A stretch of DNA of 40,590 bases from Planktothricoides sp. SR001 (GTDB taxonomy: Bacteria; Cyanobacteriota; Cyanobacteriia; Cyanobacteriales; Laspinemataceae). The position numbers and the translations under genes were made by a program. Below, one piece after another: positions 3,402 to 37,138 of the stretch (its first letter is position 1; the number at the start of each line of letters is the position of its first letter). The notes under the pieces were generated by a model. That model searched no databases, had not been told where the DNA came from, and saw only the letters and a program-made list of their open reading frames with translations. Where the stretch lies: assembly GCF_001276715.1 (NCBI RefSeq), contig NZ_LIUQ01000016.1, forward strand, positions 11,156 through 51,745, written 5' to 3'.

Positions 3402-4748
3402 CTATGACAATAACCCCGCAATAAAGATGGCGGAAATAATTAACTGCACTGCCATCATAGGCAAACCGTAGCGCAGAAACTTATGAAAAGAAATCTCCCG
3501 ACCATGTTGTTCGGAAATACCCGCAGCAACAATATTAGAAGAAGCTCCCACCAAAGTGCCATTTCCCCCTAAAGTTGCCCCAAACATCATGGCATAAAAT
3601 AAGGGTAAAACTTCGGGAGGAAAATTACCGGAAAAGTTGGGATCGAGAATTTCTGGCCCGACCATGCCAATATTGACGATATATTGTTTCAGCAGGGGAA
3701 CCATTGCCACTACCAAAGGAATATTGGGAATCACACTAGATAATATCCCGACTATAAACACTAAGATTAATGACCCCAGAGCGATATTATTCCCGATCAC
3801 AGCCGCTAAAATTTTAGCCAGTTGACTGGTGACTCCGGTTTTTTCTAATCCACCAATTAAGACAAAGGTGGACATGAAAAATATTAGGGTACTCCAGTCT
3901 ACATCTCGGAGGATATTATGCACTGTGTCAATTTTAGTTTGATGGGCTAATAGTAGGGCTAAACTTGCGCCTAAGAGGGCAACAGATGCGGGGTCAATGG
4001 GAATGGGTAAAGATTCTCCAATTACAAAGAAAGTTAAGACGATCCCCACGATCACTCCGCCTAACATTAACACCTTGGGATGATTAATTTTCGGATGGGG
4101 TAAGTCCTCTAAGTGTTCAAATTTTGTCTGCCAGATTTTCCGAAATAGAAAAGGAGCGATCGCCAATACGGACAAAACTGCCAGCAGTCCGCCAAAACTT
4201 AGTTTAACTAAATATTGATTAAAGCTCATATTAATCGAACTGCCGACAATAAATGTCGCTGGGTCGCCCACCAATGTCAATAAACCGGCACTATTTGCGA
4301 CAAAGACCATTAATATGAGTAATGGCACAAAATCTACCCCAATTTCCTGAGCCATTGGCGGAATTAAAGGCGCTAACAACATCACCGTTGTGGCATTGGG
4401 TAAAACCGCACAAATGGGGGTGGTAATGCCGATGACTGCGAGTAATAAAACCTTGCCACTGCCTTTGGCAATCATTACCATTTGAGTGGCGATATATTCA
4501 AATACTTTCGTTGGTTCAAACGCCCGAACTAAGACCATCACCCCAAAAAAAAGCGCCAAAGTTGCATAGCTTTGGGTAATGTAACTCATCGCTTCTTTCA
4601 GGGTCATTACATGGGCAAAGACCAAAATTAATGCTCCCAATAAAGCGGCCACTGTCAGATGGATTTTTTCTGAAATAATAATCCCAATGACCCCAAGAAA
4701 CGTGGCTAGGGATATCACCGCTGGTAAATTCATTTCTATAAAGTTCAT
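3402..4748 (-). CDS. ArsB/NhaD-type ion transporter (IT superfamily)
   Basis: A 448-aa polytopic membrane protein with about 11-12 hydrophobic segments. Two repeated core blocks are visible: PNATTVMLLAPLIPPMAQ, then NSAGLLTLVGDPATFIVG in the first half, and SVIPNIPLVVAMVPL with GATLGGNGTLVGASSNIVAA in the second. These are the re-entrant substrate-binding loops of ArsB/NhaD/SLC13-like carriers. The family moves Na+/H+, arsenite or dicarboxylates. The ion is not readable from sequence, but NhaD-like Na+/H+ exchange is the likely reading. A GGAG about ten bases upstream supports the ATG at 4748. It has a long leader (about 370 bases after a c-di-AMP riboswitch), which suggests control by osmotic or ion status. 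Confidence 0.9.
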   Translation of the reverse strand: MNFIEMNLPAVISLATFLGVIGIIISEKIHLTVAALLGALILVFAHVMTLKEAMSYITQSYATLALFFGVMVLVRAFEPTKVFEYIATQMVMIAKGSGKVLLLAVIGITTPICAVLPNATTVMLLAPLIPPMAQEIGVDFVPLLILMVFVANSAGLLTLVGDPATFIVGSSINMSFNQYLVKLSFGGLLAVLSVLAIAPFLFRKIWQTKFEHLEDLPHPKINHPKVLMLGGVIVGIVLTFFVIGESLPIPIDPASVALLGASLALLLAHQTKIDTVHNILRDVDWSTLIFFMSTFVLIGGLEKTGVTSQLAKILAAVIGNNIALGSLILVFIVGILSSVIPNIPLVVAMVPLLKQYIVNIGMVGPEILDPNFSGNFPPEVLPLFYAMMFGATLGGNGTLVGASSNIVAAGISEQHGREISFHKFLRYGLPMMAVQLIISAIFIAGLLS

Positions 4749-4844
4749 AAATTATGCTCCGCTGTGATGAGTGCATGATTGGCTGACTAGAAAAACCCCC
4801 AGTCTCAACCTGTTGGCGAAAACGCGAAAATTAGCCATAATTGT

Positions 4845-5021
4845 TTAATCATCATTTTCTAGGTATTGATTCAATTCAATGATTGGATCCACAAATATTT
4901 GTGCATTTTGTTCTAAACAATATGTTGACTTTAAGCCGGTCTGTTTAACTCTAATCTCCTGACCAGATCGCTAATCTTCAGAAATATTGCTAGGCTTTTC
5001 ATTTTTTGATGTAAAAATCAT
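4845..5021 (-). pseudogene. Small ORF in the transporter leader, split by an in-frame TAG
   Basis: Between the riboswitch and the transporter an ATG at 5021 with GGAG eight bases upstream opens a frame of 58 codons to TAA at 4845-4847. It is interrupted only by a TAG at 4971-4973 (codon 17). Downstream of the stop the frame continues with balanced, protein-like composition (for example QEIRVKQTGLKSTYCLEQNA and FVDPIIELNQYLENDD). It may be a decayed small gene or a 16-aa leader peptide. The family is not recognised, and the frame could be open by chance. Confidence 0.3.
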
Positions 5022-5115
5022 AAATTGACTCCAATTCAATCCAGTTTAGGTTTACAGCGTCGTCATTATTTACTGAGTCACTGAATGAAGTCAAAACATT
5101 TTTTAAAATGCTGAT

Positions 5116-5275
5116 TCACCAGTCCTCTCCCAATGCCGCCGGGGTTAGCTGACGGGCTAGAAATGAGAGTTTTTCTTCTCTAAATACTTGAAATATTAGA
5201 GATACGCCCCAAGGTTGGTTCCCCCGTTTCCTCTCCTTGGCGTTCAGATTTTTCAAAGCTAAGGAACTAGGCTGA
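5116..5275 (-). promoter_or_regulatory. c-di-AMP riboswitch (ydaO/yuaA family)
   Basis: Read on the minus strand, the element carries the signature blocks of the ydaO/yuaA motif: GCCAAGGAGAGGAAACGGGG, then GGGGGAACCAACCTTGGGGC, a variable stem, TTTCTAGCCCGTCAGCTAAC, then CCCCGGCGGCATTGGGAGAGGA in part. A closing helix forms between the 5' side (5275 downward, UCAGCCUAGUUCC) and the 3' side (GGACUGGUGA), with two single-base bulges. The variable hairpin pairs TATCTCTAAT-type and AGAGAA-type arms. It precedes the ArsB/NhaD transporter in the same orientation. Known members bind c-di-AMP and usually repress ion, osmolyte or wall genes. No classical terminator is evident just downstream, so the expression platform is unclear. 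Confidence 0.9.
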
Positions 5276-5675
5276 CTTATTCTGTTTACTTAGGGGATAA
5301 GTCTAGCATAAAAAAATTTTTTTTTCAACATAACTTCAATCCAATGGTGTTTTGGCTTTTCTTTAAATTTAGAAGCGTGGGCAAGATTTTGCCCATATAG
5401 TAAATTGATTAAGAGCAATTCTCAAGTAAGTCAGGATGAATCGCGGCTGGTTTTACTAGATAGACAAGAAAGCTTTCATCCTGGATCGATCCCCCCACGC
5501 CCGCTTAAAAAGGGGCTTTTTGGAATGAAAGCAAGAAGTCTAATATTCGACGCCGAATCCCCTCTAGCTTTCTGATTTACCCGGAAATTTGGCTTTTCCT
5601 ATCAATGATTTCAAGTTTGACTGTAAAGTTGTGTAAAGACCTTGTTTCAATGTTTGAATTTGGAAGTGCATAAAA
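5276..5675. other. intergenic region upstream of riboswitch and desaturase fusion
   Basis: This holds the presumed minus-strand promoter for the riboswitch transcript and the upstream region of the plus-strand desaturase-SDR gene. A GGGCAAGATTTTGCCC hairpin lies near 5379-5394. A minus-strand frame at 5577-5864 overlaps the next gene and is not credible. No gene is seen. Confidence 0.6.
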
Positions 5676-6944
5676 ATGATGAATTTTTGGATCGTCAGCG
5701 CCAGTTGGGGTTTCGGTTCGGTTTTGTTCGCGGAACTGGTGCGAGACCTTTATCACTTTGTCAGCCATATTTTTCCCCCTCTGTATCGCTTGCACGTCTG
5801 GCATCATCGGGTTTTTCGTCCGGATCTGACGCCGGTTAGCGAGCGAATTTATCGCGACGCCCACTGGCGCAATGATGTGCCAGAAGCTTTGGTGATGCTG
5901 AGTTTTGGCCTATTTTTGTGGGTGGTGGCGCATTTTGCTGCCCCAGAACACCAATGGTTTGCCCTGGTGGGTTGTTTGTACACTTTGAGTTTTTTGGCAA
6001 GCGCGATCGCCCGGGGAATGGGGTTAGAAGGGGCCGATGAATTGACGGATTTAACCCATACTCCTGGGCCATTTCTTGCCCCACCGTCTCACTGGTTGGT
6101 CAATCGAACTTATCACTGGCGACATCATTTTGATAACCAAAATGCTTATTTTTGCGGTACTTTAACTTTGGTGGATCGAATCATGGGCACAGCACTTTCT
6201 TTGAAGGGGAAAACGATCGCCGTTACTGGGGCTTCTGGAACTTTGGGGCGATCGCTCTTATTTCAGTTACAAAAAGCGGGGGCAAAAGTCATCGCCCTGA
6301 CTTCTAGCAATCAAACCCTGACTCTGAATATTAATGGGGAAGAATTGCCGATAAAAACGATTTCTTGGCAAGCGGGTCAAGAATCCGAGTTAGCCAAAGT
6401 ATTAGAAAAAGTGGATATTTTGGTAATCAATCACGGCATGAATGTTCATGGGGAAAGAACCCCAGAAGCGATCGCGCAATGTTATGAAATTAACGCCTTT
6501 TCCGCTTGGCGACTCCTGGAACTATTTCTCACCACGGTGAAAACTAATGAAGATATTGCCCGCAAAGAAATTTGGGTGAATACTTCTGAAGCGGAATCAA
6601 ATCCTGCGTTTAGTCCCTTATATGAACTCAGCAAACGCACCCTGGGGGACTTAGTAACCCTGCGGCGTTTAGACAGTCCTTGCGTGATTCGCAAACTAAT
6701 TCTTGGCCCGTTTAAAAGTAACCTCAATCCTATTGGCATTATGTCAGCGGACTGGGTAGCCAAACAAATCGTGAAACAGGCGATCGCGGATACTCGGAAT
6801 ATCATTGTCACCATCAATCCTTTGACCTTTATCACCTTTCCCATCAAAGAATTTTTTGTCAGCACCTACTTTAAACTCTTCACCCGGAAAGCCGCCAAAG
6901 TGACAACTGCCGATGAAACTAACCCAGTCAAAATTACTCCGTAG
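5676..6944 (+). CDS. Sterol desaturase-like / short-chain dehydrogenase fusion
   Basis: A 422-aa two-domain protein. Residues about 1-170 resemble the fatty-acid hydroxylase/sterol desaturase fold: His clusters DLYHFVSHIF, LHVWHHRVF and YHWRHHFDNQNAYFCG could hold a di-iron site. Residues about 178-400 form an SDR Rossmann domain with TGASGTLGRSL for cofactor binding, LVINHGMNVHG, a Ser in NTSEAE and the catalytic YELSK (Tyr-x3-Lys). This fusion is a known cyanobacterial architecture with unknown substrate; lipid or carotenoid-like alcohols are a guess. ATG at 5676 follows a weak ribosome site, and ATG at 5679 is almost equivalent. The neighbours give no pathway clue. Confidence 0.85.
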   Translation: MMNFWIVSASWGFGSVLFAELVRDLYHFVSHIFPPLYRLHVWHHRVFRPDLTPVSERIYRDAHWRNDVPEALVMLSFGLFLWVVAHFAAPEHQWFALVGCLYTLSFLASAIARGMGLEGADELTDLTHTPGPFLAPPSHWLVNRTYHWRHHFDNQNAYFCGTLTLVDRIMGTALSLKGKTIAVTGASGTLGRSLLFQLQKAGAKVIALTSSNQTLTLNINGEELPIKTISWQAGQESELAKVLEKVDILVINHGMNVHGERTPEAIAQCYEINAFSAWRLLELFLTTVKTNEDIARKEIWVNTSEAESNPAFSPLYELSKRTLGDLVTLRRLDSPCVIRKLILGPFKSNLNPIGIMSADWVAKQIVKQAIADTRNIIVTINPLTFITFPIKEFFVSTYFKLFTRKAAKVTTADETNPVKITP

Positions 6945-7227: not shown

Positions 7228-9312
7228 ATGAGTAATTTTTGGCAGTTAATAGCAAGCAACACCAACGGGTTCCCAACGATTTTTGTGGGAACTCCCTTAG
7301 CGCAAGTTTTGGCGCAAATTTTATCCGATCCCATCAAAGACCCGGTGGCGATTTTCCTGATCATCATGGCGATGATGCTGATCGCTCCCCTGGTATTTGA
7401 ACGATTAAAATTACCGGGTATTGTGGGCTTAATTTTGGCGGGAATAGTTATCGGGCCTTATGGGTTAGGATTACTCGCAAGAGATAGCACCATCATTTTA
7501 TTAGGCACCGTAGGATTGCTATTTCTGATGTTTTTAGCCGGTCTAGAAACTAGCTTAGACGATCTGAAATTAAATGCCGATAAAGCCATTATTTTCGGCT
7601 TGGCAACTTTCTCAATTCCGATGGTTTTGGGGACAGTGGCGATGCTGTTACTGGGATATGGTTGGTTGGCGGCAATTTTGGTGGCTTCTTGCTTTGCTTC
7701 CCATACCCTGCTGGCTTTGCCGGTGGCTAGTCGTTTGGGCATTATGCGGACTCCAGCAGTGACAGCCACTTTAGGCGGAACGCTGATTACGAACGTTTTG
7801 GCTTTGTTAGTTTTGGCGGTGATTGTTAAAGCGAAGGCGGGCAATTTAACTCTGAGTTTTTGGTTGTTTCTCATTCCCGCTTTAGCCATTTATACTGTGA
7901 CAACTTTGTGGGGAGTGCCGAAAATTGGCCGCTGGTTTTTCCGCAGGTTTGGCCATGATGAAGGGGCAGAATTTACGTTTGTTATGGCTACGTTATTTAT
8001 CGTGTCTTATTTGGCTCAGTTGATTGAAATTGAGGCAATTATTGGGGCTTTTTTGGCGGGAGTTGCCATTACTAAAATTATCCCTAATTTAAGTCCTTTG
8101 ATGAATCGAATTCAGTTTATCGGCAATACGCTATTTGTGCCGTTTTTCCTGATTTCGGTGGGAATGTTAATTGACCCGATGATTCTGATTAAAGAACCGC
8201 GATCGCTCTTAGTGGCAGCGGTAATGATTGGGGCAGAATTGCTGGCAAAATATTTGGCTGCTTGGGGTTCAGGAAAGTTTTTTGGCTGGAAGTTTCCCGA
8301 AATAATGGTGATGTTTGGTCTTTCCGGTGCTCAAGCGGCGGCTACTTTGGCCGCAATTACGGTGGCGTATAAAATTGAATTAGTAGATCAATTAACGGTA
8401 AATGGAATTATTGGCATGATTCTATTTACTTGCGTCGGTTCTCCTTGGGTGATTGCTCGGTGGGGCAAAGAGGTTAAACCAGAGGAAAAGGTGGTCAGCG
8501 ACAAACAGCAAAATTTGTCCGACCGGGTTTTAGTTCCAGTGGCTAACCCTAATACGGAAGATAATTTATTGCAGTTGGCAATTTTGCTGACGAAAAAATC
8601 TAAAGGTACGTTGCTACCTCTGCACGTTCTTTCTGATAAAAACGACAGGATTTCTCCCCAAGCTAGAATTAAGCAGAGTCAGTTATTGGCGATCGCGGAA
8701 CAAGCTGCTCATGCAGCCACAGTTAAGGTTGAACCCATTGGTCGCATTGATGCGGCGATCGCTCGCGGAATTGTTCGCAGTGCCACAGAACATAATGCTA
8801 GTTTGGTGATTTGTGGGTGGAAAGGCTATTCCACTTATAAGGAAAATTTTTTTGGTAGCACGATCGATAAAATTGTCCGGCGATCGCCTGTCCCGGTTTT
8901 AATTACTCGTTGTCCCCAACCGATTAAGAATATTGCCCGAGTCTTTTTAGCGTTAACTCAGACCGAAACTGTATCCTGGGAATTCCAACAAACTTTAGAA
9001 ATTGCTAAAACCATCGCCGCCGAACTCAAGGCCAAAATTCATTTGTTAATCATCGTTACTGGGGCATCCAATCCAGATTTTTCTTTGGCAACTTTAGGCT
9101 TGAGTGAGAATACGCCCATCCAAGAAATCCAGGACAATTTTGTCATGAAAGTTACGAGAATGCTGACCGCTGATGATTTATTAATCTTAACTTCCGGCAC
9201 CCATCAGTATCATGCGTTTGGATTATCCAATGGATTAGTCGAACCAGAGGCGATCGTCCGCCTTAAACCAGATATTGCCACCATTGTGGTTCATTTTCCT
9301 AATCTCAATTAG
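7228..9312 (+). CDS. CPA2 cation:proton antiporter with C-terminal UspA domains
   Basis: A 694-aa protein. Residues about 28-415 carry some twelve membrane segments of the monovalent cation:proton antiporter-2 family, including PLVFERLKLPGIVGLILAGI and the loop MRTPAVTATLGGTLITNVLA. Residues about 430-690 are two universal-stress-protein-like domains; the first has the nucleotide-loop-like VICGWKGYSTYKENFFGS followed by SPVPVLITR. Such proteins exchange K+ or Na+ for H+, with the USP part sensing nucleotides. ATG at 7228 has AAGGAA eleven bases upstream. It is monocistronic. With the riboswitch-linked transporter 2.5 kb away, it gives this locus two ion transporters. Confidence 0.92.
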   Translation: MSNFWQLIASNTNGFPTIFVGTPLAQVLAQILSDPIKDPVAIFLIIMAMMLIAPLVFERLKLPGIVGLILAGIVIGPYGLGLLARDSTIILLGTVGLLFLMFLAGLETSLDDLKLNADKAIIFGLATFSIPMVLGTVAMLLLGYGWLAAILVASCFASHTLLALPVASRLGIMRTPAVTATLGGTLITNVLALLVLAVIVKAKAGNLTLSFWLFLIPALAIYTVTTLWGVPKIGRWFFRRFGHDEGAEFTFVMATLFIVSYLAQLIEIEAIIGAFLAGVAITKIIPNLSPLMNRIQFIGNTLFVPFFLISVGMLIDPMILIKEPRSLLVAAVMIGAELLAKYLAAWGSGKFFGWKFPEIMVMFGLSGAQAAATLAAITVAYKIELVDQLTVNGIIGMILFTCVGSPWVIARWGKEVKPEEKVVSDKQQNLSDRVLVPVANPNTEDNLLQLAILLTKKSKGTLLPLHVLSDKNDRISPQARIKQSQLLAIAEQAAHAATVKVEPIGRIDAAIARGIVRSATEHNASLVICGWKGYSTYKENFFGSTIDKIVRRSPVPVLITRCPQPIKNIARVFLALTQTETVSWEFQQTLEIAKTIAAELKAKIHLLIIVTGASNPDFSLATLGLSENTPIQEIQDNFVMKVTRMLTADDLLILTSGTHQYHAFGLSNGLVEPEAIVRLKPDIATIVVHFPNLN

Positions 9313-29650: not shown

Positions 29651-32600
29651 ATGGAAGAGAACATAGCAATCAGCCAAGATGAACGTAAGGATTTTTCCGT
29701 CGGAGTTTCTTATAGCGCTGGCCTAGGAAAAGATACCGTAATTGGTACATTGTCCGATGATAATCTGCAAGGCAACGAAAACAACGACGAACTATACGGT
29801 AACAAAGGCAATGATGTCCTCAATGGCAATCAAGATGATGACATAGTTTACGGCGGTGAGGGAGATGACGCCATCAATGGTGGTGCCGGAAACGACACAC
29901 TCTACGGCGATGGGAAAAATAACGACACAGACACAGACCCTTTAACCAGTGGGTTCGGTAACGATGTCATCTCCGGGGATCTTGGGGATGACTGGATCTA
30001 TGGCAACCAAGGAGATGACCAACTCGATGGGGGTGATGGAGAAGATCGCCTCTGGGGTGGGCAAGGCAACGATTTGCTCTCCGGTGGCAATGGCAACGAT
30101 GACCTCAACGGCGACCTGGGAGACGACATCATCGTCGGTGGCAATGGCAACGATACCGGCAATGGTGGCGATGGCAACGACCAAGTATTTGGTGAAGAAG
30201 GCGATGACTTTCTCATCGGTGGCAAAGGCAGCGATCTGATCGATGGGGGTGCTGGCAATGACCAGATCCTAGGGGATGACCCCAGCTTGTCCTTTGGCTT
30301 TGGCAACAATAACGACATCATCCTAGCCGGTGATGGCGATGATATTGTCCTCGCAGGTTTTGGCGACGACCAAGTATTTGGCAACGCAGGCAATGACATC
30401 ATTGATGCCCAGGACGGCAATGATCTCATCTATGGTGGCCAAGGCAACGATACCGCCAGTGGTGGCGGTGGCAATGACCGGATGTTTGGGGACAAAGGCA
30501 ATGATGTGCTGATCGCCGGATCTGGAGATGACGAAGTTTCTGGCGGAGAAGGAAATGATCAGATCAGCGGCAACGAAGGCAATGACATCATCAATGGTAA
30601 CGATGGAGACGATACGGTCTATGGGGGGCAAGGCACCGATATTTTGCGGGGGGGTGCTGGCAGGGATTTAGTCTTTGGCGATAAAGGCAACGACACCTTA
30701 ATTCTTGACCCAGGAGATACCGTCACTGGCGGGGAAGGGGATGATGTTTTCCGCCTGATTCGGGGTAACGGTGCGTTTAACCCCGCTGAAGCAGCGAACA
30801 TCAGTGATTTTCGGGCTTACGGCACAGATTTGCTTCAGCTAGATGGAGCCATGAAGTTTGAAGACCTGAATATTTTTGATGGCATTGGCGAAAATGCTGG
30901 GAAGGCGATCGTTCAAGATAAACTCACCGGCCAAACCCTAGCCGTATTAAATGGCATTACTGCTGCTGACTTAACTCGCGACAAGTTCCTCCCAGTGTCC
31001 CAACCCCAAGCCCCCGCCTCCCAGGAGAATCAAGAATTGCAACCCAGCATTCCGGCCACCAGCGGACCTGGCGCAGTCACGCCGCCGCAGCCAGTTCAAC
31101 AAGAACCAGCAGTGATCTCGTTTAGCTTGGGGGAATTCATCCTCAACGAGAACGGTGAACAGATAGGAGCCCCGATTACCGTGAAACGTACCGGCGGCTT
31201 GACTCAAGAAGTAAGCGTTGATGTGGCTCTCACCACCGGAACCGCCACACGAAAAAGCACGGTAGCGGAAGGCGAACAGTTTGATTTCGACGACACCGAT
31301 TTCCCCTTGAAGGTTACCTTCGCAGCCGATGAAAGCGAACAAAAGGTGGTAATTCCCCTGGAGGACGATGACCTCGATGAACCCGCAGAAACCATTGAGT
31401 TAGCATTGACCAATCTTCAGGGAGAAAATGCTGAACTTGGCGACCAAACCACTGCCACGGTAAAAATTCAAGATAATGACGATCCGGGTAACTTAGAGTT
31501 TGCGGCTGCGGAATATATCGTAGAAGAAAATAAGGGATCGATTGATGTTCAGGTGAGACGCAACGGTGGCACCAAGGGGAATGTCTCGGTTAATTTGATT
31601 TTGGATGCGGCGGCTACCCCCACGCCTGGGACGCAATTGGCTACCCCTGGGACTGATTACACCAATATCTTTGGTAGTAGCGGCTTGCGTGTGGAGTTTG
31701 CCAATGGCGAAAGTGTGAAAACCATCAGCATTCCCATTTTGGACGATACTCCCCCCACCCCAGATGGGACGAAAGAGATTAAGTTAGCCTTGGCTAATCC
31801 CAATCCCTCCACGGCGCAATTTGATTCCATCAAAAATACGACAGTCAAGATATTAGATGATGATATTCCGACGCTGACCATTAGTAAAATCGACGATCTG
31901 GCCGATGAAGCCGACCCCAGTAATACAGCTACTTTTGAAATTAGCAGTAGCTTAGGTGCTCAACAACCGCCTCAACTGGTCAATCTTCAAATTGGTGGCA
32001 CCGCTAAACTTGGGGCTGACGATCCCGCTAAACCACCTCAGCCCCCAAGTGATTATATTATTTCCGGAATCACAGACCCGACAAAAACTGCCGTCACCAT
32101 TAGCGGAGGTACGACCCAGTTTACGGTTTCCGTACCCAAGGATCTCAATGATACCGAGACAGAAGGGCCGGAAACTATCATCATTGACCTGCTACCCGGT
32201 ACGAATCCCACAGCCTACAATATCGGCGCCGATAAAAGTACCACCCTCAACCTGTTGGATGATGATAAACCTACGGTTTCCCTGGAAGCCTCTGGGCGAA
32301 TTGCGGAAAATAATTTGGCTCAAGCCGTTGATTTGACATTTACCCTCAAGGGGGCAATCAAAGCACCAATTACAGTCAATTACACCGTTGGCGGATCCGC
32401 TGAGAATGGATCTGACTATACAATCAGTGCCACTAGCGTGACGTTTAATCCCTCGGATTTTAATTCAGCGACTAACACAGCAACCAAAAAAGTCAAGGTG
32501 TCTCCGTTGGACGATCTCACCCGTGAACCCAATGAAGTGATCGATGTCGTCTTACAAGAGCCACCAGGGGGCGAATATGCCCTAGATCCTGAGAAAAATC

Positions 32601-33025
32601 AGACGACGGTGACGGTTTTAGATAATGAAACATCGGTATTAATTTTTACTCCCAGTGACCCCCTTGCCCTGGAAGCAGGAAATGCCTCGGAAATTGGGGG
32701 AGAATTTAAGATTAGCCGTTTTGGCGGTAGCGCTAACGAGGTGGTCGTGAATTACCAGATTGATAACACGGTAAAGGATTCCGCAACTCCTGGTATTGAC
32801 TATGACACCAGCAAGCTGCCTAATTTTAATGCCGCCTCACTGACCGGAAGCATTACCATTCCTGTGGGTCAAGAAGCAGTCACAATCCCAATTACACCTC
32901 TGAATGATCGGGTCGGCGGTGAGACGTTGACTGAATTTATTACCTTTAAGTTGCTTAAGGGCAACGGGTATGAAGATCCCCTCGGGGCTGAAGCCACGAT
33001 TCAATTGATTAATAATGGTGGCTAA
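29651..33025 (+). CDS. RTX (hemolysin-type) and Calx-beta repeat protein
   Basis: A 1124-aa acidic protein without a Sec signal. Residues about 25-380 are calcium-binding RTX nonapeptide repeats (GGAGNDTLYGDG, GNQGDDQLDGGDGEDRLWGG and many more), closed by a domain with LQLDGAMKFEDLNIFDGIG. Residues about 490-1120 hold around five Calx-beta domains, each ending in a variant of VKIQDNDDP or TVLDNET. RTX proteins are exported by type I systems (ABC, adaptor, TolC-like duct) and fold on binding Ca2+; the usual C-terminal export signal is not evident here. Probably an adhesin or surface structure. Numerous minus-strand frames are repeat shadows. Confidence 0.9.
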   Translation: MEENIAISQDERKDFSVGVSYSAGLGKDTVIGTLSDDNLQGNENNDELYGNKGNDVLNGNQDDDIVYGGEGDDAINGGAGNDTLYGDGKNNDTDTDPLTSGFGNDVISGDLGDDWIYGNQGDDQLDGGDGEDRLWGGQGNDLLSGGNGNDDLNGDLGDDIIVGGNGNDTGNGGDGNDQVFGEEGDDFLIGGKGSDLIDGGAGNDQILGDDPSLSFGFGNNNDIILAGDGDDIVLAGFGDDQVFGNAGNDIIDAQDGNDLIYGGQGNDTASGGGGNDRMFGDKGNDVLIAGSGDDEVSGGEGNDQISGNEGNDIINGNDGDDTVYGGQGTDILRGGAGRDLVFGDKGNDTLILDPGDTVTGGEGDDVFRLIRGNGAFNPAEAANISDFRAYGTDLLQLDGAMKFEDLNIFDGIGENAGKAIVQDKLTGQTLAVLNGITAADLTRDKFLPVSQPQAPASQENQELQPSIPATSGPGAVTPPQPVQQEPAVISFSLGEFILNENGEQIGAPITVKRTGGLTQEVSVDVALTTGTATRKSTVAEGEQFDFDDTDFPLKVTFAADESEQKVVIPLEDDDLDEPAETIELALTNLQGENAELGDQTTATVKIQDNDDPGNLEFAAAEYIVEENKGSIDVQVRRNGGTKGNVSVNLILDAAATPTPGTQLATPGTDYTNIFGSSGLRVEFANGESVKTISIPILDDTPPTPDGTKEIKLALANPNPSTAQFDSIKNTTVKILDDDIPTLTISKIDDLADEADPSNTATFEISSSLGAQQPPQLVNLQIGGTAKLGADDPAKPPQPPSDYIISGITDPTKTAVTISGGTTQFTVSVPKDLNDTETEGPETIIIDLLPGTNPTAYNIGADKSTTLNLLDDDKPTVSLEASGRIAENNLAQAVDLTFTLKGAIKAPITVNYTVGGSAENGSDYTISATSVTFNPSDFNSATNTATKKVKVSPLDDLTREPNEVIDVVLQEPPGGEYALDPEKNQTTVTVLDNETSVLIFTPSDPLALEAGNASEIGGEFKISRFGGSANEVVVNYQIDNTVKDSATPGIDYDTSKLPNFNAASLTGSITIPVGQEAVTIPITPLNDRVGGETLTEFITFKLLKGNGYEDPLGAEATIQLINNGG

Positions 33026-33206: not shown

Positions 33207-33770
33207 ATGAGTTCTCAAATTCTGGTAGAAAAGAAAAAGTTAGATCAGCCCCCGTTAGAGATTCACTATCTGGGCGATCGCGTCTTGCGTCAAAATGCCA
33301 AGCGCATTGCCCGGGTTGATAGCGAAATTCGCGAGTTGGTGCGGGAAATGCTGCAATCCATGTATAGTGCTGATGGCATTGGGTTAGCAGCGCCCCAAGT
33401 GGCCATTCAAAAACAATTGATTGTGGTGGACTGCGAACCGGATAACCCCGCTACTCCCCCGGTGGTGTTGATTAATCCGACGATTAAGAAATATAGTCGG
33501 GAATTGTCGGTTTTCCAAGAAGGTTGCCTAAGCATTCCTGGCGTGTATTTGGAAGTGAAGCGCCCAGAGGCGATCGAGGTGGCTTATAAAGATGAGCATG
33601 GCCGACCAAAAACTTTAACCGCGAATGGTTTATTGTCTCGTTGTATTCAACATGAAATGGATCATCTCACGGGGGTTCTGTTTGTTGACCGGGTAGAAAA
33701 TTCTCTCGCTTTAACCGAAGAACTGACAAAACATGGTTTTTCGCCGAAAGCTGTTCATAAATTGACTTAA
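33207..33770 (+). CDS. def: Peptide deformylase
   Basis: A 187-aa cytosolic metalloenzyme that removes the N-formyl group from nascent proteins. The three motifs are intact: GIGLAAPQV, EGCLSIPG (metal Cys) and QHEMDHLTGVLF (HExxH). It is bacterial type-like in length. The ATG at 33207 has no strong Shine-Dalgarno, but no better start exists. It ends at its own intrinsic terminator, so it is monocistronic. Confidence 0.96.
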   Translation: MSSQILVEKKKLDQPPLEIHYLGDRVLRQNAKRIARVDSEIRELVREMLQSMYSADGIGLAAPQVAIQKQLIVVDCEPDNPATPPVVLINPTIKKYSRELSVFQEGCLSIPGVYLEVKRPEAIEVAYKDEHGRPKTLTANGLLSRCIQHEMDHLTGVLFVDRVENSLALTEELTKHGFSPKAVHKLT

Positions 33771-33796
33771 GTCTAACGAAAATCTTTCTTGTTTAC

Positions 33797-33825
33797 GGTT
33801 GACAGTGAACTGTCAACCATTTTTT
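33797..33825 (+). terminator. Intrinsic terminator of def
   Basis: A 9-bp stem GGTTGACAG / CTGTCAACC with a TGAA tetraloop (33797-33818), then ATTTTTTAG. Textbook rho-independent terminator, 27 bases after the def stop. Confidence 0.9.
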
Positions 33826-33866
33826 AGCTTACCTAATTCTTACCTAATTCTTACCTAAATATTGTC

Positions 33867-34064
33867 ATGCCAATCGATCCAAAAAGTTATCTCTATCTCG
33901 GTGGTGCTTGTATCGCCGGAATTGCAGCGGTCGGTTCAGTGTTTGAATTATCTTCTGGAACTCCGCAGCTTGGTACGGCGATCACAAGTGTGATTCTTAC
34001 TCTAAGTGTGCCATTGGGTGGTTTTTTATTTGTTGCCGCTATTCGTAATGCTCAAGGTAATTAA
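33867..34064 (+). CDS. Small hypothetical two-segment membrane protein
   Basis: A 65-aa hydrophobic peptide with two predicted membrane segments (YLYLGGACIAGIAAVGSVFE and SVILTLSVPLGGFLFVAAIR) joined by a polar turn. I do not recognise a specific family. Codon use and the tight intrinsic terminator behind it support expression. Shine-Dalgarno is weak, and three TTACCTAA repeats precede the start. The stop lies 124 bases from the group II intron. Confidence 0.7.
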   Translation: MPIDPKSYLYLGGACIAGIAAVGSVFELSSGTPQLGTAITSVILTLSVPLGGFLFVAAIRNAQGN

Positions 34065-34093
34065 TCTCAGCTAAGATTAATTAGATTAATTAT

Positions 34094-34121
34094 AAAAAAG
34101 GGAATAATTTTTCCCTTTTTT
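34094..34121 (+). terminator. Terminator of the 65-aa membrane protein gene
   Basis: AAAAAAGGGAA-type arm pairing with TTTTTCCCTTTTTT, a symmetrical stem with a U-rich 3' side and short loop, 30 bases after the stop. Confidence 0.8.
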
Positions 34122-34187
34122 CCTTTGGTGATTATTTATGTACAGCGTTTTTATGATTAGGGCACCACAAATATAGTTATTTCAATT

Positions 34188-35004
<817 letters not shown>

Positions 35005-35023
35005 AAGATTAATACAATTATCT

Positions 35024-35094
35024 AGGGGCGCAAGCCGCCGCGCCCCTACGATATCTGTTGATTTGCTTCTTTGGGCGCGGCGGTTTGCGCCCCT
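35024..35094. repeat. 71-bp palindromic element
   Basis: Terminal inverted repeats of 22 bp, AGGGGCGCAAGCCGCCGCGC-CC and its complement with one mismatch, around a 27-base centre. It begins 19 bases after the intron. A MITE-like or palindromic repeat of the GCGCCCCT family. Confidence 0.75.
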
Positions 35095-35146
35095 GATGCT
35101 TTGTCTCAAGTACAATTGAAATAAATATATAGCGGTTATGATCCCG

Positions 35147-35211
35147 ATGAAGTACAGAGGTCTTCTGGATTCCCGCGCGGGAATGACAGGGTTTTTTTAT
35201 ACTTCATAACT
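35147..35211. repeat. Nested palindrome with ATTCCCGCGCGGGAAT core
   Basis: Outer arms ATGAAGTA / TACTTCAT flank a perfect 16-bp palindrome ATTCCCGCGCGGGAAT and a T-run. Probably another short dispersed repeat; no gene is in the segment. Confidence 0.6.
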
Positions 35212-35225
35212 CTGCCAAGTGCTAT

Positions 35226-35540
35226 ATTGGTAAGGGCGAAGCATTCCCGGCAAAAATTCACGCTTCTAACCATCTAACTTCTGCCAGTATTGGTAAGGGC
35301 GAAGCATTCCCGGAACAAATTCACTCTTCTAACCATCTAACTTCTGCCAGTATTGGTAAGGGCGAAGCATTCCCGGCAAAAATTCACGCTTCTAACCATC
35401 TAACTTCTGCCAGTATTGGTAAGGGCGAAGCATTCCCGGCAAAAATTCACGCTTCTAACCATCTAACTTCTGCCAGTATTGGTAAGGGCGAAGCATTCCC
35501 GGCAAAAATTCACGCTTCTAACCATCTAACTTCTGCGGGA
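35226..35540. repeat. Five tandem copies of a 63-bp unit
   Basis: Unit boundaries at 35226, 35289, 35352, 35415 and 35478, an exact 63-bp period. Each unit opens with ATTGGTAAGGGCGAAGC and contains CATCTAACTTCTGCC; copy 2 differs at a few bases (ACAAATTCACTC for AAAAATTCACGC). After the last copy the sequence turns into GGGAATGCTTCGCCCCTAC, the inverse complement of the unit's GGGCGAAGCATTCCC. There is no spacer variation, so this is not CRISPR. Confidence 0.95.
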
Positions 35541-35625
35541 ATGCTTCGCCCCTACAAGCGCCCGTTCAAATCGATGTCAACGAAAATTTGATCATAATTT
35601 TCTCCATTTTCTCCGGGATGAACCA

Positions 35626-35689
35626 GGGCGAAGCATTTTGACCCAAATTTGAGGATTTTTCCAGAAATTTTTGCCAAAATGCTTCGCCC
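35626..35689. repeat. Palindromic element with GGGCGAAGCATTTTG arms
   Basis: Perfect 15-bp inverted repeats GGGCGAAGCATTTTG / CAAAATGCTTCGCCC around a 34-base centre, ending 94 bases before the FHA-PrsW gene. It shares its GGGCGAAGCATT end with the 63-bp unit upstream. A plus-strand promoter for the following gene must lie near or beyond it. Confidence 0.8.
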
Positions 35690-35782
35690 CTACAATGTCC
35701 CTCTAGGTTGGGAATGGGATATAATGGATGATCTTGGATTGTCTGCCAAAATTTATTTATCATTAAAATCATTTAAAATTCC

Positions 35783-37138
35783 ATGACCCAGAAAGATCCT
35801 GAAGAGGCTTATCTACGACAAATCTTTCATGGAACGGGAAACACAGGTCAGCCAGATATCCCCGGTCAACCACCCCAGCGTTATCCCTTGTCTTCAACGG
35901 TTGAGGTGGTGCTAGGACGAGATCCGAGTTGTCAAATTCTGGTACAGCCCCAACAATATGTGATGGTTTCTCGGCACCATGCGGTGATTAGACCTAAGCA
36001 AAATCTCCCTAATGGTCAAACCTATTGGGAAATTTGCGATTTGAATAGTTCTAATGGGACTTTTGTTAATGGGAAACGGTTGCGCGGTTCTCAAAAGTTG
36101 ATGGTGGGCGATCGCATTTCTTTGAGTAAAAATGGCCCAGAATTTATTTTTGAAGATGTTAGCCCACGTCAAACAATAGTCAACAATACTCCGCCAAGCC
36201 AAGGCGGTAAACAGTCAGGAATATTACCATCTCAATCGGCAAATAATCTCACTTTTACCCAATTATTCCCGATTCTTTCTACAGGTCGGGATTTAAGGCG
36301 GAAAGCTTATTTAATTCCCGGTAGCATTACGGTGTTATTTGTAGTTTTGATGTTTGCTACTTTGGGCAATGCGAGTTTATTTAATCTGTTACTTGCGGCT
36401 TATTTGAGCATTAGTGGTTATTATTGTGTTTACCAACTTTGTGGCAAACATAAGCCCTGGTGGTGGCTTTTCGGCTGTGCGATCGCCACTATGGTGGTGC
36501 TATTAAGTCCGCTTTTATCTGTGTTTATTTTTATTTTCCGAGACATTTTGCCCGGTTCACTTCCCGATCCGACAAATGTCTCGTTTTTCCATTTACTTAC
36601 TGCCATGTTTTTTGGCGCCGGTTTAATGGAAGAATTGGTAAAAATTTTGCCCGTTTTGATGGCATTGGTGATAGGCCGATCGCTGCGATCGCCCTGGAGA
36701 GAACGCTTAGGAGTTTGGGAACCCCTGGATGGGATTTTATTAGGCAGCGCCTCAGCGGTTGGATTTACCCTGTTAGAGACTTTAGGACAATATGTACCGC
36801 AGATTGTTCAAGAAGTCGGAGAACTCCAAGGATTACAGTTATTAATTCCTCGGATATTAGGATCTGTGGCCGGTCATACGGCTTACAGTGGTTATTTGGG
36901 CTATTTTGTCGGCTTGAGTGTGTTGCAACCCAAGCAACGTTGGTTGATTTTAGGGGTGGGATATCTTTGTGCCTCTGGTTTGCACGCCCTCTGGAATTCT
37001 ACAGTAATTTTGGGATATCATGTCCTGGCCATTGTGGGCATTTTATCTTATGCGTTTTTAGGCGCTGCCATTTTGAAAGCGCGATCGCTCTCCCCCACGC
37101 GAGCAGAAAATTTTGCCACTCGGTTACGAGGGCAATGA
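35783..37138 (+). CDS. FHA-domain PrsW-family membrane protease
   Basis: A 451-aa fusion. Residues about 38-125 are an FHA phosphothreonine-binding domain (VVLGRDPSCQ, VSRHHAVI, DLNSSNGTFVNG). Residues about 165-440 are eight or so membrane helices of the PrsW family, with GAGLMEELVKILPVL (Glu-Glu motif), VGFTLLETLGQY, VAGHTAYSGYLGY and LHALWNS, the conserved acidic and His residues of these CAAX-protease-like intramembrane proteases. PrsW of Bacillus cleaves anti-sigma factors. Here the FHA domain could dock a phosphorylated partner. ATG at 35783 has no strong Shine-Dalgarno. It converges with the next gene. Confidence 0.88.
   Translation: MTQKDPEEAYLRQIFHGTGNTGQPDIPGQPPQRYPLSSTVEVVLGRDPSCQILVQPQQYVMVSRHHAVIRPKQNLPNGQTYWEICDLNSSNGTFVNGKRLRGSQKLMVGDRISLSKNGPEFIFEDVSPRQTIVNNTPPSQGGKQSGILPSQSANNLTFTQLFPILSTGRDLRRKAYLIPGSITVLFVVLMFATLGNASLFNLLLAAYLSISGYYCVYQLCGKHKPWWWLFGCAIATMVVLLSPLLSVFIFIFRDILPGSLPDPTNVSFFHLLTAMFFGAGLMEELVKILPVLMALVIGRSLRSPWRERLGVWEPLDGILLGSASAVGFTLLETLGQYVPQIVQEVGELQGLQLLIPRILGSVAGHTAYSGYLGYFVGLSVLQPKQRWLILGVGYLCASGLHALWNSTVILGYHVLAIVGILSYAFLGAAILKARSLSPTRAENFATRLRGQ

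Follow-up and report, generated by a model that had tools for sequence, protein, structure and literature searches.

Background

The pairing of a c-di-AMP riboswitch with the kind of transporter gene described here is already in print for Synechocystis. A review presents slr0753 as a putative chloride exporter regulated by a c-di-AMP riboswitch (PMC10117731), and in Synechocystis 6803 it is termed a putative chloride efflux transporter (PMC10117731, PMC9896922). In a psbV mutant, three suppressors were mapped to slr0753 (PMC9896922). In salt-shocked Synechocystis, the mRNA of only one of three chloride-exporter candidates including slr0753, namely sll1864, was reported to go up (PMC8670252); that slr0753 did not go up with it counts against a simple salt role. 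According to PMC5386190, the slr0753 mRNA is a read-through product of a discrete and abundant small RNA, Ncr1680, in both Synechocystis 6803 and 6714. A discrete Ncr1680 RNA together with read-through into slr0753 fits transcription attenuation.

Two other systems are close enough for comparison. In the kdp riboswitch of B. thuringiensis, c-di-AMP is described as promoting termination (PMC6488665). For a Dehalobacter riboswitch, PMC9337991, which names the aptamer pseudoknot of the c-di-AMP riboswitch, describes that without c-di-AMP the bases of the P1 right shoulder and of the pseudoknot pair with the left shoulder of the terminator.

The locus analysed here lies in a 40,590-nucleotide stretch of the genome of Planktothricoides sp. 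SR001 (contig NZ_LIUQ01000016.1), referred to below as the window. It shares its aptamer class with the Ncr1680-slr0753 'actuaton' of Synechocystis PCC 6803, which is conserved in PCC 6714; the downstream transporter is presumably orthologous, as judged from the homologue in Synechocystis salina, and the leader is long in both (314 nt in S. salina, 371 nt in the window). The organism is a different one, with a genome of 7.07 Mb; the leader sequence beyond the first hairpin (H1) differs, and the genome has an extra riboswitch before an NrtB-like ABC operon. The kdpFABC riboswitch of B. thuringiensis resembles the window in aptamer class, ion transporter target and long leader, as far as PMC6488665 describes it, but it has a canonical terminator and serves a K+ pump, whereas the window has a long imperfect hairpin with an interrupted U stretch and a presumed anion transporter. 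The Dehalobacter tandem Na+/c-di-AMP riboswitch has, by the description in PMC9337991, an OFF-switch layout like the one proposed below for hairpins H1 and H2; it differs in standing in tandem with a Na+ riboswitch, while no second riboswitch class was matched in the Rfam scan of the window, and the overlap with the aptamer tail is small in the window. The window is thus a good but ordinary example of a described pairing. We propose, with a probability of roughly 65%, that it carries a c-di-AMP riboswitch in the leader of an Slr0753-type transporter gene which acts as an OFF switch by transcription attenuation.

The aptamer and its boundaries

The features at the 5′ end of the leader are as follows.

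5305 to 5310, minus strand: likely -10 element TATGCT (from the sequence; weak)
5120 to 5275, minus strand: c-di-AMP riboswitch aptamer (ydaO/yuaA, RF00379), from the Rfam match at 5252-5120 plus a 5′ extension from the conserved AGTCAGCCTA-type motif
5164 to 5170, minus strand: P6 loop with ACUCUC(A), one side of the pseudoknot, from its complementarity to the 3′ tail

At the gathering threshold, cmscan returned two Rfam matches in the window, RF00379 and a group II intron. The RF00379 (ydaO/yuaA) match, at 5252-5120 on the minus strand, covers model positions 1-134 completely and scores 69.2 bits (E 3.6e-14), against a gathering score of 38 bits. This covariance-model check had been suggested by the original prediction, made from the sequence alone, and it bears out the c-di-AMP riboswitch placed there on the minus strand. 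The conserved blocks that the prediction listed are all present on that strand and in order, and the order of the RF00379 core (GGGGGAACC, UUGGGG, CCCGUCAGCUAACC, GAGAGGA) is kept. Judged from its sequence, the aptamer is genuine and probably functional.

For comparison, 101 aptamer sequences were extracted, and three of them (L017, L024 and L026) were dropped when the core pattern was unmatched, leaving 98; these are not independent, the 80 that are not of Nostocales type collapsing to 58 at 90% similarity. With the Rfam placement starting at 5252, some pairs in P1 and P2, and one in the helix that follows, are non-standard. A GCC-TAAT-type motif is present in 90 of the 98 sequences by a pattern of our own choosing (73 by a narrower one). 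It coincides with Rfam's P1 in 53 of them, lies upstream of the Rfam start in 36 and is found elsewhere in one; the window belongs to the 36, which mostly have a longer P2. L003, whose P2 is short, scores 85.3 bits, with Rfam's P1 falling on the motif. By inspection, placing P1 at the conserved motif in the window gives standard pairs (one of them G-U), two bulges and an extended P2. P1 then pairs 5275-5270 with 5137-5130, the bulges being A5134 and T5132, which agrees with the earlier description of a closing helix with only single-base bulges; P2 becomes 5266-5262 with 5232-5228 (letters checked). Because the conserved motif pairs properly as P1, in agreement with the start chosen by the original prediction, 5275 looks a better 5′ end than Rfam's 5252. 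The 3′ end of the predicted span (5116-5275) holds less well, 5116 lying a few bases inside the next hairpin. A different, outer closing helix (5271-5263 with 5125-5119) was considered and rejected: pairing of the tail with upstream sequence was no better than in shuffles (p≤0.05 in 3 of 92 sequences; window p 0.405).

Transcription may start near 5298, as the position of the likely -10 element suggests. TATGCT is also found in L011, L019 and L083, and 19 of 32 transporter-linked loci have a -10-like hexamer from our own list in the 50 nt preceding the motif, the motif pattern being absent in five of the 32.

We take the P6 loop and the 3′ tail to be the two sides of the pseudoknot of the RF00379 aptamer. 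In the window the partner of the loop is GAGAG (5129-5125) or UGGGAG (5132-5127) in that tail. At least five contiguous pairs between P6 loop and tail can be formed in 97 of the 98 sequences, compared with a mean of 37.5 and a maximum of 50 for shuffled loops, and the letters differ on both sides between lineages (CTCTC/GAGAG, CCTTCCA/TGGAAGG, ACTGAA/TTCAGT). A duplex-energy test was weak (p≤0.05 in 16 of 98; window p 0.60).

Eighteen Nostocales-type loci (for example, L043 and L069) carry another hairpin directly 3′ of the aptamer, of the GGAAC-CCCAA..TTGGGGTTTC type. Their pseudoknot is altered on both sides (CCTTCCA/TGGAAGG).

Hairpins downstream of the aptamer

Two hairpins that share an arm can be drawn between the aptamer and the transporter gene.

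5075 to 5127, minus strand: H1, proposed anti-terminator hairpin, with its 5′ side at 5127-5106 (beginning in the aptamer tail) and its 3′ side at 5101-5075
5025 to 5094, minus strand: H2, proposed terminator-like hairpin, with its left arm at 5094-5072 (shared with H1) and its right arm at 5045-5025
5014 to 5024, minus strand: U-rich stretch directly 3′ of H2 (UUUAUGAUUUU, the next base being U too), 9 U in the 12 bases after H2

H1 folds in the window with -15.1 kcal/mol (z -1.97; 8 of 200 shuffles were as stable) and is followed by AGUAAAUAAUG, with no U tract. Over the 98 sequences, a folding test of the H1 region gave a mean z of -2.19, with 61 values below -2 (window z -1.8), compared with a mean of -0.39 and 11 of 98 below -2 for a control region. 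In S. salina, the H1 region is no more stable than shuffles (z -0.09 and 0.46). Pairing of the tail over at least five bases, as in H1, is found in 86 of the 98 sequences, and still in a mean of 61.6 of 98 when the downstream sequence is shuffled; the argument for H1 therefore rests on the z-scores. The folding test superseded a duplex test (p≤0.01 in 23 of 98 and, for a far-downstream control, in 2 of 98; window p 0.17). No usable consensus came out of a MAFFT/RNAalifold alignment of 58 non-redundant sequences (-2.8 kcal/mol).

H2 is a long imperfect hairpin followed by UUUAUGAUUUUU. The fold of 5097-5017 has -18.2 kcal/mol and a z of -2.08, with 5 of 200 shuffles as stable; this stability varies with the stretch folded (z -0.31 for 5088-5013 and -1.52 for 5130-5013). 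The window p is 0.025 in a duplex test and 0.28 by pair count. For the wider tests of H2, the 18 Nostocales-type sequences were left out and the 72 of the remaining 80 that had H1 were tested. Counting pairs gave no family-wide signal in these (p≤0.05 in 6 of 72; 10.9 pairs compared with 9.9 in shuffles; mean z -1.05; p 0.47 for S. salina and 0.36 for L011), and duplex energy gave a mild excess only (12 of 72 at p≤0.05). S. salina and G019 have hairpins with a homologous left arm, not above shuffles, with right arms that are unaligned with that of the window; because right arms fail to align column by column, no covariation was counted for H2. H2 is hence proposed rather than established, its support coming mainly from the window and not from the wider set. 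The 549-nt leader as a whole is not notable (z -0.38).

The original prediction described the leader as long and without a classical terminator, and took this for an unusual mechanism. The leader is indeed long, and relatives share this feature. A simple scan of 4600-5700 found no canonical terminator, with 0.9 expected, and our hairpin scan over nine leaders gave weak candidates in the window; 'unusual' is doubtful, since the H1/H2 layout is already known.

Switching mechanism

In the preferred model, bound c-di-AMP would lock the 3′ tail of the aptamer (GAGAG, 5129-5125) in the pseudoknot with the P6 loop. H1 would then lose its base, and 5094-5072 would pair with 5045-5025 as H2, which together with the U-rich stretch would stop transcription about 270 nt before the transporter gene. 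Without c-di-AMP, the tail bases would join H1, which uses the same segment, so that H2 would be suppressed and the polymerase would read through into the transporter. The computed support for this attenuation model consists of the aptamer, the complementarity of the pseudoknot, the conservation of H1, the presence of H2 in the window and a move towards H2 at the expense of H1 once the tail is withheld. In RNA 5130-5013, with the tail free, H1 has a mean pair probability of 0.87 and H2 one of 0.05; in RNA 5124-5013, with the bases up to 5125 withheld, the values are 0.45 and 0.49, so that H1 and H2 are nearly balanced when the U stretch has just been transcribed. With the RNA ending at 5000, a start at 5130 gives 0.76 for H1 and 0.17 for H2, and a start at 5124 gives 0.04 and 0.90. 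By these fold probabilities, sequestering the tail shifts the balance from H1 to H2, despite an overlap between H1 and the pseudoknot of three bases (5127-5125), or of one in the other register. The two are only partly exclusive, because the main stem of H1 (5123-5106) lies outside the pseudoknot. An earlier two-state fold (tail plus downstream sequence -25.3; downstream sequence alone -22.0) was set aside, as its start at 5118 also withheld bases of the rejected outer helix. The model agrees in sign with the kdp riboswitch of B. thuringiensis, where c-di-AMP favours termination (PMC6488665), and in arrangement with that of Dehalobacter (PMC9337991). The genome of the window has one diadenylate cyclase domain.

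The main competitor, which we consider unlikely, is a translational platform, in which H2 hides a Shine-Dalgarno sequence and a start codon. In relatives where an ABC permease starts soon after the platform, the permease would be the gene controlled; in the window the hidden start is that of a short frame, and the transporter would be affected only indirectly.

4971 to 5021, minus strand: 16-codon leader frame, probably not a gene, with a Shine-Dalgarno-like GGAG (5032-5029) inside H2

The same folds speak for hiding, as the mean unpaired probability of the GGAG before 5021 falls from 0.41 when the tail is free (5130-5000) to 0.02 when it is withheld (5124-5000), and a riboswitch controlling a uORF is described for M. 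tuberculosis (PMC12810186). Among permease-linked leaders (17 chosen, two without H1), pairing of the H1 3′ arm with the segment before the ATG reached p≤0.05 in 3 and p≤0.1 in 7 of 15, the window having 0.057; start-codon sequestration was judged weak on this test. Against translational control, the 16-aa peptide of the frame at 5021 matches only its own locus among 183 sequences, and the transporter starts about 220 nt beyond 5021 with a GGAG of its own (4760-4757). No match to the Rho RNA-binding domain was found in the genome of the window, although 9 of 14 control genomes have one, which makes coupling by Rho-dependent polarity unlikely; and Ncr1680 in Synechocystis suggests that transcripts end. 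A small leader protein was also considered: a 41-aa stretch beyond the stop at 4971, in the same frame, likewise matches only its own locus among the 183, has no Pfam match at E≤1 and was judged to be chance.

It is less probable still that the switch works in the ON direction, H1 itself being the terminator and c-di-AMP preventing it by holding the tail. H1 is indeed the best conserved downstream structure, and in the Nostocales-type loci L043, L060, L062 and L069 the aptamer is directly followed by a strong hairpin (-17 to -18 kcal/mol), whose 3′ side runs into T-containing sequence. However, the window's H1 runs into AGUAAAUAAUG rather than a U tract, and the c-di-AMP riboswitches cited here are described as OFF switches (PMC6488665, PMC9337991). 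We give very little weight to the idea that the window holds a decayed copy whose aptamer no longer controls the transporter, the second copy in the genome being the one that precedes an ABC operon. That second RF00379 copy scores 67.6 bits, and the blastn similarity of the leader to S. salina stops at about 5073; yet the window copy scores 69.2 bits, with core, pseudoknot and H1 intact.

The transporter

The gene downstream of the riboswitch lies on the same strand, 371 nt away.

3402 to 4748, minus strand: 448-aa ArsB/CitMHS-type transporter gene, from Pfam, NCBIfam, PDB and homologue matches

Its product (4748-3402) matches the Pfam families CitMHS (3.2e-62) and ArsB (4.5e-15). The NCBIfam matches, to ArsB, MamN and DASS models, are all below cut-off, and the PDB matches are to ArsB- and DASS-type structures. 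Among its Pfam and NCBIfam matches at E≤0.001, no model is named for NhaD. The gene had originally been called a NhaD/ArsB-type transporter: the ArsB half of that name is backed by Pfam, and the sense orientation is borne out, while the NhaD half finds no model of that name. The further suggestion of a Na+-type carrier is not borne out, the matches being to CitMHS, ArsB, DASS and MamN. We presume the gene to be an orthologue of slr0753, by way of the S. salina homologue. By analogy, its cargo is probably an anion, possibly chloride, and an anion is better founded than sodium.

Near the riboswitch, on the opposite strand, a gene at 7228-9312 (plus strand) encodes a Na+/H+ exchanger domain fused to a Usp domain. 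Elsewhere in the window, the group II intron match (RF00029, 34926-35004, plus strand, 60.3 bits, E 1.5e-9) may represent an intron without a protein of its own, or a remnant, because the stretch from 33770 to 35783 has no frame that reaches 150 codons. The gene at 29651-33025 (plus strand) encodes a 1124-aa protein which by eye has many GND-rich, calcium-binding-like repeats and Calx-beta-like stretches.

Distribution and operon history

The genome of the window (7.07 Mb) carries two RF00379 copies, and an RF00379 match was found in 25 of 39 sampled relative genomes and in 99 of 194 genomes of the class, its own included in both counts. The transporter (above 590 bits) is found in 15 of the 39, and 13 of these 15 have the riboswitch, compared with 12 of the 24 genomes that lack the transporter. 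G001, the only other genome from this genus, lacks both. The second copy in the window's genome (G000:C28:79247-79108; L002, L169) lies in front of an operon that encodes an NrtB-like permease, an NMT1-like binding protein and an NrtC/D-like ATPase.

An aptamer lies upstream in at least 42 of 80 named loci of transporter homologues (the best 80 of 207), with up to 2 kb examined; this is a lower bound, because some loci are shorter than 2 kb. Between the aptamer and the estimated start there are 35-557 nt in 23 of the 42, and the remaining 19 have an open frame of 211-283 codons in between, which in L069, the one scanned, is Usp-like. The top-ranked named homologue among the best 80 of 207, from Synechocystis salina (78%), has its aptamer about 314 nt upstream; the homologue in MAG RI_101 (81%) also has one upstream. 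In L034 (JAAUUT010000001.1), a cyanobacterial-looking transporter and riboswitch lie on a contig labelled Candidatus Gracilibacteria, which is probably mis-binned.

Gene order in some relatives may account for the long leaders. In G022 (L171, G022:C12:103000-112000), the riboswitch is followed on one strand by an ABC permease, a binding protein, an ATPase, a Usp-like protein and the transporter (gene names by resemblance to proteins scanned elsewhere in the set), a row that possibly represents the ancestral c-di-AMP operon. Between riboswitch and transporter, L058, L100 and L039 carry a piece similar to the N-terminal part of the permease (48-55% identity over 31-78 residues), containing a stop in L100; these pieces are apparently remnants. 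In G019 (L167, G019:C1:2136000-2142000) a P-type cation ATPase of 924 aa occupies that place, and L047, L072 and L078 have a second aptamer between the transporter and the permease. In the 371-nt leader of the window, genome repeat, locus and Pfam searches found no recognisable gene remnant; besides itself, it has 24 matches of 15-30 bases in its own genome, with E of 0.35 or worse. The simplest account is an ancestral operon whose inner genes were lost, and this leader may be such a deletion scar.

We tentatively extend this to a wider history, which is rather less probable than its negation. One strand-exchange platform, with the tail either in the pseudoknot or in H1 and the H1 3′ arm passing to H2, would be common to cyanobacterial c-di-AMP riboswitches and would once have controlled an operon of an NrtB-like ABC transporter, a Usp-like protein and an ArsB/Slr0753-type anion exporter; the middle genes would have been lost, the leaders would be scars, and the attenuated RNA would persist as an abundant sRNA. 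Neither the platform nor the operon-scar history was found described in the literature searched, which leaves most subscription papers outside.

Conclusions

The window adds a well-preserved cyanobacterial target of a c-di-AMP riboswitch, with a concrete and testable model of switching. The proposed operon history would explain the long leaders of the regulon, and would tie an ABC transporter, a Usp-like protein and a presumed chloride exporter to one second messenger.
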